DNA of 64,000 nucleotides from Halopelagius longus (lineage in GTDB: Archaea > Halobacteriota > Halobacteria > Halobacteriales > Haloferacaceae): NCBI RefSeq assembly GCF_900100875.1, contig NZ_FNKQ01000001.1, positions 310,001 through 374,000 on the forward strand, written 5' to 3'. Made by a program: the position numbers and the translations under genes. Under the pieces are notes generated by a model, which was not told the origin of the DNA, made no database searches, and saw only the letters and a program-made list of their open reading frames with translations. Of the stretch, positions 13,556 through 24,418 are shown piece by piece (the stretch's first letter is position 1; the number at the start of each line of letters is the position of its first letter).

Positions 13556-15499
13556 TTAGCTACTCGTCGTCGTGTTGCCCGCTTCCGTGGCCGTGCCGTT
13601 CGTGGCAGTTCCGGTGACCGTCTCGTTTTCGGCCGTGGCGTTGGTGGCCGTGTCGTTCTCGGCCGTGGCGTTGGTGACCGTCTCGTTTTCTGCCGTGGCG
13701 TTGGCGGCCGTGTCGTTTTCGGCCGTGGCGTTGGTGGCCGTGTCGTTCTCGGCCGTGGCGTTGGCGGCCGTGTCGTTCTGAGCGGTGTCGTTACCGCCGC
13801 TCAGGTCGATGGGCAGCAGGTCGTCCGCGCTGGGAGTCTGTTGCTCCGCCTCCTCGAGGATGCTCCCGTCGCTGTCTTGGACGCCGACGATTTGGAACTC
13901 GGCCGCCTGCGTCTGGCCGCCGGCTCCCTGCGTCTGCGTGTCGGCCGTCTCGTTGCCGACGCCGCCTTCGGTCGTCGTCTCGTTAGTGACACCGGCACCC
14001 GTCTCGGTGGCCGTCTCGTTGCCGATGCCAGCTTCGGTGGTCGTCTCGTTAGCGGCACCGACGCCGCTCTCGGTGGTCGTCTCGTTCATCGCACCGGCGC
14101 CAGCTTCGGTGGTCGTCTCGTTAGCGGCACCGACGCCACCTTCCGTGGTGGTTTCGTTGGTCATGCCGGCACCGCCTTCGGTCGTCGTTTCGTTGGTGGC
14201 ACCGATGCCGCCTTCGGTCGTCGTCTCGTTGACGGCACCAGCGCCCGTCTCGGTGGCCGTCTCGTTGCCGACGCCAGCTTCGGTGGTCGTCTCGTTGACG
14301 GCACCGGCGCCCGTCTCGGTGGCCGTCTCGTTGGCCGCTCCGACGCCGCCTTCCGTCGTTTCGTTGGCGGCAGCCGCTTCCGTCGTCTGATTGTCGGTGC
14401 CGGTCTGATTACCGATTCCGCCTTCGGCCGCGGCGGTCTCGGGGTTGACCATCCCGACGAGGAACAGGTTGTACCGTTCGCCCGCCTCGAACTGGTAGCT
14501 GGCGGAGGCTATCGGGTCGGCGTCGCCCGTCTGGAGCACCTCGACCTGCGTGGTGCCGGTCTGGATGTCGGCGTAGTTGCTCGCTTCCTCGCTCTCTATC
14601 GCACCGCCGACGACGTAGCTGCCGGCGCGGACCTTCAGGACGCCGGCGTCGGGCGAGACGTTGACCGCGCGAACGAGCGCCGTGTCCGTGTTCTGGTCCT
14701 GTTCGTCCTCGGTCTGCTCGCCCTCGGGCTGGTCCTCGAAGACGAGCGCCTCGATGTTCTGGAGTCGGCCGGCGGCCGCGACGGTGTAGCTTTGACCGCC
14801 TTCCACGGTGACGCTCTCGTCGATGAGCGGCTCCGAGGACGGCGTCTGTGCCGCGCCGCCACCGGTTTCGGTGGCCGCACCGGCGCCAGTTTCGTTGGCC
14901 GCGCCGGCGCCAGTTTCGTTGGCCGTCTCGTTAGCGGCACCGACGCCACCTTCGGTGGTGGTTTCGTTCATCGCACCGGCGCCACCTTCGGTCGTCGTCT
15001 CGTTGGTGGCTCCGACGCCAGCTTCGGTGGTCGTCTCGTTAGCGGCACCAACGCCACCTTCCGTGGTGGTTTCGTTGGTCATGCCGGCACCGCCTTCGGT
15101 CGTCGTTTCGTTGGTGGCACCGATGCCGCCTTCGGTCGTCGTCTCGTTAGTCGCGCCTGCTCCGGCGGCCGTCTGGTTACCGCCTTCGCCGCCGTCCTGC
15201 GACGGATACACCTGAACTTGTACCTCGCCCGGCGAGAGGTCGAGATAGCCGGTGATGTTTCCGAACTGGACGCCTTGGGCGACCTGCTGGCCGTCGACGT
15301 AGATATCGACCGCGGGCGCGTCCGGCGACGCGTGGAGCGCGCGAACGAGCGCCGTGTCTTCGCTCGGCGGGAACGGACTGCTTCCGCTCTCCGTACCGCT
15401 CTCGCTCTGTTGTGCGTACCCCGCACCGGCACCGAACGCGAATACTGTACCTCCGACACCAAGTGTCTTCAATAGTGACCGTCTGGTTGTTCGGGACAT
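13556..15499 (-). CDS. Tat-secreted DUF4397 protein with N-glycosylation-sequon repeats
   Basis: A 647-residue exported protein. The N-terminus TTRRSLLKTLGVGGTVFAFG is a Tat signal without lipobox. Two DUF4397 beta-sandwich domains begin at DTALVRALHASPDAPAVDIY and DTALVRAVNVSPDAGVLKVR. Each is interrupted by a run of about 12-residue repeats of the form NETTTEGGVGAA, and the C-terminus is a third repeat alternating NDT, NAT and NET. I count about 40 N-X-T sequons, so it should be densely glycosylated. There is no C-terminal anchor or PGF-type sorting signal, so it may be released or held by other means. Strongly repetitive DNA makes repeat number prone to change. Confidence 0.85.
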   Translation of the reverse strand: MSRTTRRSLLKTLGVGGTVFAFGAGAGYAQQSESGTESGSSPFPPSEDTALVRALHASPDAPAVDIYVDGQQVAQGVQFGNITGYLDLSPGEVQVQVYPSQDGGEGGNQTAAGAGATNETTTEGGIGATNETTTEGGAGMTNETTTEGGVGAANETTTEAGVGATNETTTEGGAGAMNETTTEGGVGAANETANETGAGAANETGAGAATETGGGAAQTPSSEPLIDESVTVEGGQSYTVAAAGRLQNIEALVFEDQPEGEQTEDEQDQNTDTALVRAVNVSPDAGVLKVRAGSYVVGGAIESEEASNYADIQTGTTQVEVLQTGDADPIASASYQFEAGERYNLFLVGMVNPETAAAEGGIGNQTGTDNQTTEAAAANETTEGGVGAANETATETGAGAVNETTTEAGVGNETATETGAGAVNETTTEGGIGATNETTTEGGAGMTNETTTEGGVGAANETTTEAGAGAMNETTTESGVGAANETTTEAGIGNETATETGAGVTNETTTEGGVGNETADTQTQGAGGQTQAAEFQIVGVQDSDGSILEEAEQQTPSADDLLPIDLSGGNDTAQNDTAANATAENDTATNATAENDTAANATAENETVTNATAENDTATNATAENETVTGTATNGTATEAGNTTTSS

Positions 15500-15509
15500 A
15501 AGTTGTCGT

Positions 15510-15543
15510 GCAGACAGTTCTTACTCGTGTCTGCCTAAAATAC
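15510..15543 (-). promoter_or_regulatory. promoter with operator-like inverted repeat for the DUF4397 gene
   Basis: Reading on the minus strand, TATTTTAGG (about 15535-15543) is a TATA box. Directly downstream lies a 7-bp perfect inverted repeat, GCAGACA (15510-15516) and TGTCTGC (15528-15534), separated by 11 bases. It occupies the space between TATA and the expected transcription start about 13 bases before the ATG at 15499, the position where archaeal repressors usually bind. Confidence 0.55.
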
Positions 15544-15736
15544 GCGTTGGCGGATTGTTGAAGTGTGTTGCAATAAATACACTAACCTGATATGTATATT
15601 CGTAAATAGCAATAACTACCTTCCAGTGGATGGTAACTGTTTCTTACCGTTCTAATCGCAGGACGGCGGCGGTTCATTCCGAGTTAACGATCGTTCAGCA
15701 GAGGCGTTATACCCGTCCCGCGGCTAGGGACGGCAG

Positions 15737-24273: not shown

Positions 24274-24418
24274 CGCCGTGCCGGCCGAACGCAACCCTTC
24301 GGTCGGCAGTCACGCCGGGCCGACCGAACGCAACCCTTAGCAACGCGCCGGGCCGACCGAACGCAACCCTTAGCAACGCGCCGGGCCGACCGAACGCAAC
24401 CCTTAGCAACGCGCCGGG
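24274..24418 (+). repeat. tandem 33-bp promoter-like repeat upstream of tgtA
   Basis: Three exact copies of a 33-base unit (24313-24345, 24346-24378, 24379-24411) are followed by a partial copy and preceded by one degenerate copy (24274-24312). Each unit contains CGAACGCAACCCTTAG. In the last copy the AACCCTTAG box is about 26-34 bases ahead of the tgtA ATG, the right place for a TATA element of a leaderless haloarchaeal transcript. The array therefore looks like a multiplied promoter element with a spacing close to three helical turns. There are no unique spacers, so it is not a CRISPR. Confidence 0.75.

Follow-up and report, generated by a model that had tools for sequence, protein, structure and literature searches.

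The question raised by this locus is how an exported protein comes to carry long runs of repeats inside its folded domains, and what such repeats might do. The gene lies in a window of 64,000 nucleotides from Halopelagius longus, the whole stretch of DNA that was analysed (contig NZ_FNKQ01000001.1, positions 310,001 to 374,000). A single ORF of 647 amino acids occupies positions 13556..15499 on the reverse strand, in the place and frame given by the original prediction, and all features of the gene described below lie on that strand. The protein is of the tandem DUF4397 type and contains three arrays of N-glycosylation sequons. DUF4397 (PF14344) was matched in three stretches of the protein at 109.1 bits, against a cut-off of 30.6, and was the sole Pfam family found (to E 0.01). 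NCBIfam supplied a name for neither the window protein nor its ortholog in the congener.

Export of the protein was evaluated from its termini. The N-terminus, MSRTTRRSLLKTLGVGGTVFAFGAGAGYAQ, contains what we take to be a twin-arginine (Tat) motif and was read from sequence and composition as a Tat-type signal peptide at aa 1-30 (TRRSLLK...AGAGYAQ; 15410..15499), which is kept in the congener ortholog. There are no cysteines anywhere in the 647 residues; consequently the protein has no lipobox and a lipoprotein anchor is ruled out. An archaeosortase anchor was likewise rejected, as the C-terminus, inspected by eye, is not of the PGF type. Upstream of the gene, alignment with the congener revealed an identical element, CGCCAACGCGTATTTTA (15536..15552), that is possibly a promoter of the BRE/TATA type. 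Close upstream of the start codon there is also an inverted repeat, GCAGACA-N11-TGTCTGC (window 15510-15534), part of which is kept in the congener. Judged by their Pfam content, the neighbouring genes (a GNAT acetyltransferase, an SNF-family transporter, an arylsulfotransferase-like protein, a DUF7344 protein and a PAS histidine kinase) yielded no functional partner.

The position of the arrays relative to the fold was determined using profile matches and AlphaFold. DUF4397 is marked by a motif of the HASPDAPxVDxYVDG type, with R, H, P, D, A, P, Y and G columns invariant over 40 sequences, and the window protein conforms to it. A DUF4397 profile run against the genome itself matched the protein over profile positions 1-58, then 51-118, then 1-85, which means that one domain is split and that the second is incomplete where array 2 begins. 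In a first AlphaFold model, based on 40 aligned sequences, domain 1 was folded confidently on either side of array 1, with strands 1-5 at aa 50-99 (15203..15352; HMM 1-58; block means 92-95) and strands 6-8 at aa 226-256 (14732..14824; HMM 51-118; block means 86-95). Array 1 itself had block pLDDT values of 30-43 and fell below 50 at aa 106-211. Domain 2 was folded confidently up to aa 348, its strands 1-7 covering aa 273-348 (14456..14683; HMM 1-85; pLDDT above 90).

In the same model aa 363-368 (block pLDDT 73) appeared to complete domain 2, with array 2 merely following it. This reading was rejected because the alignment was out of register and because a profile of strand 8 and a second model both placed the strand at aa 534-543 (13871..13900), beyond array 2. 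The profile drew on other DUF4397 loci, which supplied 43 distinct segments; of the 25 printed, two resemble strand 5 more than strand 8. Its best site in the window protein was EFQIVGVQDS at aa 534, which scored 11.2 bits while the next site scored 2.9. The best site in the congener ortholog was AFRIVGVQDS at aa 435, with 14.1 bits followed by -0.7. The second model, calculated from a clean alignment with segments trimmed to end at strand 8, contained a strand at aa 536-541 with a block pLDDT of 90; as the trimming favours the aa 534-543 register, the profile is the more independent test of the two. Eight strands are accordingly predicted for each domain, strand 8 of domain 2 lying past array 2. 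Profile breaks, the strand 8 profile and AlphaFold agree with the earlier claim that both DUF4397 domains are interrupted by 12-residue repeats, domain 1 between strands 5 and 6 and domain 2 between strands 7 and 8. Provided that strands adjoining in the sequence run antiparallel, as they do in a simple sandwich, the two loops would be located at the same pole of the fold, and the domains are predicted by the models to close around the arrays.

A total of 41 N-X-S/T sequons were counted in the protein, comprising 24 NET, 5 NDT, 5 NAT, 3 NQT and one each of NIT, NGT, NTT and NVS; 40 of them are N-X-T, which matches the figure of about 40 given in the original prediction. In 10000 composition shuffles 10.0 ± 2.7 sequons were expected and the maximum was 21, an excess to be read with the proviso that sequons inside repeats are not independent events. 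The arrays hold 39 of the 46 asparagines, every one in N-X-T, while two of the other seven are in sequons. Pooled over both species, 54 of 54 array asparagines were in N-X-T, and three of 11 outside the arrays were in sequons. Repeat and sequon analysis delimited array 1 to aa 106-217 (14849..15184; 10 sequons, mostly 12-mers NETTTEGGxGAx) and array 2 to aa 360-531 (13907..14422; 15 sequons, 10- to 12-mers), both being built from the 12-mer and shorter variants of it. The C-terminal tail, aa 568-647 (13559..13798), contributes 14 sequons, and the third, shorter repeat that had been described at the C-terminus corresponds to NxTxx 5-mers at aa 570-629 within it.

At the DNA level the repeats had been described as nearly identical. 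This is true of blocks: a 161-nt block is shared with 7 mismatches between array 1 (14988..15148, from aa 118) and array 2 (14070..14230, from aa 424), and one mismatch was read off the printed units over its first 108 nt. It does not apply to single units, as the mean nucleotide identity among 11 units, picked for an intact core, was 79%. The block sharing fits a copying of blocks between two arrays of one gene. Unit periods of 12, 11, 10, 8, 5 and 4 residues occur in the gene, all of which are whole codons and hence multiples of 3 nt. Since repeat sequence is prone to assembly error, the exact repeat number is to be taken with care. A contrast between synonymous and non-synonymous changes in core and spacer was dropped as evidence, because the pattern by which units were picked itself fixes the core.

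Comparison within the genus was possible for two species, this one included. The ortholog (L069:9264-10826, 521 aa) occupies a collinear position with flanking DNA that is mostly 78-86% identical, and carries all three arrays in the same places, shorter and with 16 sequons in the protein. With boundaries set by hand, the arrays are 112, 172 and 80 aa long in the window species against 88, 111 and 52 aa in the congener. Identity outside the arrays was 79% for the signal and first half, 70% for the middle and 74% for strand 8 and the linker, as compared to 49% in array 1 (38 gap columns), 61% in array 2 (61 gap columns) and 62% in the tail (30 gap columns). Most gaps of the alignment thus fall within the arrays. 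The claim that the arrays expand and contract is thus borne out between the two species only. Array 1 of the congener is made up mostly of DETTTE and retains 2 sequons; three of its four ET[TA]-anchored units start with D, and it came up independently as a DET cluster. As array 1 sequons have mostly been lost in the sister species, not every array is kept as a glycan carrier.

Of 170 genomes of the family, 94 contain DUF4397. A search with the first 107 residues of the protein gave a best E of 1.6e-49 within the genus; beyond it the matches were ordinary DUF4397 ones, the best at E 7.2e-18. Sequon density was scanned in two sets of ORFs with DUF4397-like motifs, one of 57 (among them three overlapping copies of the window gene) and one of 82, and those above the threshold of at least 4 sequons per 60 residues were inspected. 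Outside the genus these were proteins of Halohasta litorea (L043/L111), Halostagnicola sp. A56 (L138) and Haloterrigena salina (L112), together with one of Halorussus ruber with sites scattered and in the tail (L157), two with sites just behind a lipobox (L053 and L067) and two bacterial proteins with scattered sites (L093 and L158). Inserts were located mostly by reading alignments, automatic detection having given three rows, one of them antisense. A sequon-rich insert in the loop between strands 5 and 6 was clear in L111 and L138; the one in L112 is shorter and holds two sites, the tail carrying more. A rebuilt DUF4397 profile breaks at 55/54 in domain 1 of the window protein and at 52/53 in domain 2 of L138, that is, in the same loop. 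L111, L138 and, in part, L112 come nearest in architecture to the window protein, having two DUF4397 domains and a sequon-rich strand 5-6 insert, and L138 and L112 share a sequon-rich C-terminal tail with it as well. They differ in that the insert is confined to the second domain and in having at most 8 sequons per protein, whereas in the window protein neither domain is left whole, inserts with 10 and 15 sequons occupying a different loop in each, in addition to a tail of 14. Among the relatives inspected, splitting of both DUF4397 domains was seen in this genus only. Many of the DUF4397 loci from outside the haloarchaea (L086-L090, L099, L105, L113 and others) belong to halophilic or alkaliphilic Bacilli, namely Salipaludibacillus, Halobacillus and Alkalicoccus, a pattern that might reflect either exchange with haloarchaea or selection in a shared habitat.

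A possible role for the domains was sought by structure comparison. The DUF4397 pair matched the PepT2 ectodomain with Z 16.8 and an rmsd of 2.9 over 182 residues of both domains at 14% identity, HGSNAT with Z about 10.7, and two AlgF domains with Z 9.6 and 9.2. Domain 2 alone, with strand 8 placed past array 2, gave Z 11.6 for HGSNAT and 10.8 for AlgF. Matches below about Z 8 (transthyretin, cytolysin domains, a lyase) indicate a common arrangement only. The tandem beta-sandwich fold is accordingly like that of the PepT1/PepT2 ectodomains (5a9d, 5a9i) and AlgF (6czt, 6d10). At 14-21% identity this is a likeness of fold with no sequence-level relationship found, phmmer having returned no sequence relatives in the PDB to E 1, and function is not transferable from it; fold likeness alone shows no function. 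AlgF is reported to resemble PepT2, to mediate protein-protein contacts and to bind none of the mannuronic acid oligomers tested (PMC10641220), PepT ectodomains to bind trypsin (PMC4597091), and DUF4397 is placed in AlgF by a table note of a published study. By analogy, this suggests that DUF4397 pairs could be protein-binding adaptors.

The prerequisites of an N-glycoprotein made by AglB are present in the window protein: an export signal, sequons, and AglB in the genome (966 bits; the enzyme itself has 14 sequons and no NET-run tail). In Haloferax volcanii, AglB-dependent N-glycans are described on exported proteins that include a Tat (SPI) substrate, HVO_1945, with 4 sites, and HVO_2160 with 19 confirmed sites (PMC8241124). 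The window protein is like the latter in being an exported haloarchaeal protein with many potential AglB sites, HVO_2160 being heavily glycosylated by AglB (PMC8241124); it differs in that its sites are predicted only, are about twice as many and are packed in repeats. The amino-acid tandem repeats of Borgs, which are often disordered and over-represented among extracellular proteins (PMC9879509), offer another parallel, from which the present arrays are set apart by their haloarchaeal genome, a gene position conserved in two species and a composition specific to sequons. Among the matches listed in searches of titles and abstracts for sequon-rich, tandem-repeat and mucin-like archaeal proteins, there was no publication on sequon arrays in archaeal proteins.

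Taken together, we regard it as probable, at roughly 60%, that the gene encodes an exported DUF4397 adaptor whose loops and tail have become multi-site N-glycan carriers, for which we infer glycosylation, an adaptor role and a brush function. Visible in the sequence itself are the export-type signal, the two domains, the array positions, the sequon excess, the sharing of blocks between arrays and the divergence from the sister species, while the sandwich fold of both domains is predicted from models. The tandem DUF4397 protein would be exported by Tat and its two beta-sandwiches, arranged as in the PepT2 ectodomain and AlgF, would fold into the adaptor. Acidic, threonine-rich arrays of low complexity would protrude from one hairpin loop per domain and also form the C-terminal tail, serving as N-glycan acceptors for AglB at up to about 40 sites. 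The outcome would be a binding module, either secreted or loosely attached to the surface, that is surrounded by a hydrated, negatively charged glycan brush. The arrays may lengthen and homogenise by whole-codon recombination, including block copying between arrays 1 and 2, and sequons may arise from, or decay to, linkers of the DETTTE/EETTTE type, GAC and AAC being one base change apart. The original prediction of a glycan scaffold thus gains indirect support from AglB in the genome, from the confinement of array asparagines to N-X-T and from the Haloferax volcanii precedent, and is weakened by the loss of most array 1 sequons in the sister species.

Tandem NETTTE pairs were confined to this genus, both in the family set (2 of 170 genomes) and in the class set that overlaps with it (2 of 194). 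The window genome has 13 such pairs, 10 in the 647-aa gene and 3 in L007:1528-1941 (reverse strand; at about 498.8-499.2 kb of contig C1 and so beyond the window). The latter encodes a small Tat-type lipoprotein ending in E/NETTTEGGALG repeats, and shares the repeat unit with the window protein though the gene is unrelated. With a looser pattern, a triplet of NET, clusters were detected in 259 of the 391 haloarchaeal genomes, representing 68 of 86 genera, while a reversed control, read by eye, was non-zero in 6 rows; sequon clusters are thus widespread in haloarchaea. In a common subset of 194 genomes NET clusters were present in 126 (hand count), DET in 103 and NEA in 9, using patterns that are not frame-aware and some matches of which are non-coding.

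These data bear on an explanation that we consider distinctly less likely, yet the strongest of the alternatives, namely that acidic, threonine-rich linkers, either neutral or of purely physicochemical use, make up the arrays and were expanded by slippage and recombination, the sequons being an unused or incidental by-product of a NET founder unit. The DETTTE units in array 1 of the sister species agree with it, as do L007, in which EETTTE units precede NETTTE and whose congener ortholog (L184) is without a NETTTE array, and the T/E-rich strand 5-6 inserts with one sequon each in L047, L053 and L067. An acidic, threonine-rich linker as the base element would likewise account for DET clusters being nearly as widespread as those of NET. 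A by-product is harder to reconcile with 54 of 54 array asparagines in N-X-T over two species while X varies over arrays and tail, with the scarcity of NEA clusters, or with NET clusters that are at least as frequent as DET even though asparagine is the rarer residue (aspartate was 3.3 times commoner in nine window genes). Even so, since array 1 of the congener has lost sequons and DET linkers are widespread, some of the repeat expansion may have to do with an acidic, threonine-rich linker and not with glycans.

The best ORFs of 30 NET-cluster loci were also inspected. Six (L207, L208, L210, L211, L216 and L217) are small Tat-type lipoproteins that terminate in NET runs, their lipobox being recognised with a simple pattern. 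Four are AglB (L192, L193, L199 and L214), with Pfam AglB domains above cut-offs and NCBIfam scores of 312-394 bits that remain below the whole-protein cut-off of 450 because the ORFs are cut by the locus ends. In these four genomes the C-terminal region of AglB is rich in NET, so that sequons are clustered on the glycosylating enzyme itself. At least two of the 30 loci (L188 and L190) appear intracellular or out of frame. The DUF4397 motif was in none of the 30 loci, and the general NET-cluster trait is therefore not tied to this domain. Like the window protein, these lipoproteins and AglB enzymes are exported or membrane proteins with N-E-T sequons in tandem or in clusters, but their arrays form stalks or C-terminal tails of other unit sequences and are not inserted in folded domains. 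Haloarchaeal genomes also contain long arrays of NETEEPPA/DETEEPPA 8-mers (L203 and L213; genomes G240, G279 and G291), whose units switch between N and D in the manner of the window family.

Less probable still is a phase- or antigen-variable surface protein, in which the glycans shown at the surface would vary among cells of one population through fast changes in repeat number, which might serve against viruses or in mating. Near-identical, recombinable blocks and array lengths that differ between sister species would suit such a protein, and Haloferax species are reported to differ in S-layer glycoproteins and glycans, with a proposed effect on virus sensitivity and mating (PMC5867893). Gain or loss of whole-codon units keeps the reading frame, so the gene cannot be switched off in this manner; ON/OFF phase variation is therefore rejected, and of the original prediction of a phase- or length-variable protein the length variation is supported, between the sister species. 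Furthermore, no TRF array lies between 15151 and 24312, and hence none upstream of the gene, and the drift of units to 79% identity argues against very rapid homogenisation. Elsewhere in the window, TRF reported a 33-bp unit repeated 3.2 times at 100% identity (24313-24418).

It is very improbable that array 2 folds into a rigid ladder instead of a flexible brush, as a beta-solenoid or beta-meander of regular 12-residue rungs with one glycan per turn. In favour of a ladder, strands recur every 11-12 residues through array 2 in the second model (block pLDDT about 62-74) and, more weakly, in the first (about 55-60). Against it, array 1 is predicted structureless although made of the same units, AlphaFold2 tends to invent beta-solenoids for near-perfect repeats, and bulky glycans are absent from the model; the pattern is likely an artefact of the near-perfect repeats.

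The reading of a glycan-carrying adaptor touches on how archaea build densely glycosylated surfaces, for which it provides a testable model: N-glycan sites are seemingly added in bulk through repeat growth in the loops of conserved domains, and the sister species show both gain and decay of sequons. The placement of DUF4397 by fold beside the PepT ectodomains and AlgF gives a first concrete hypothesis, protein binding, for a domain of unknown function. Site occupancy on a repeat protein with 40 sites would in turn bear on how AglB handles dense sequons and Tat-exported, possibly pre-folded substrates. More tentatively, and somewhat against the odds, haloarchaea may repeatedly have evolved an N-glycan-based archaeal counterpart of mucins, in which NET units derive from acidic, threonine-rich linkers by single-codon changes, spread as arrays inside a gene and perhaps from one gene to another, and are accommodated in certain loops of exported, folded domains. 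If so, the window protein would be an extreme case, with both of its folded domains opened and about 40 glycan sites displayed.
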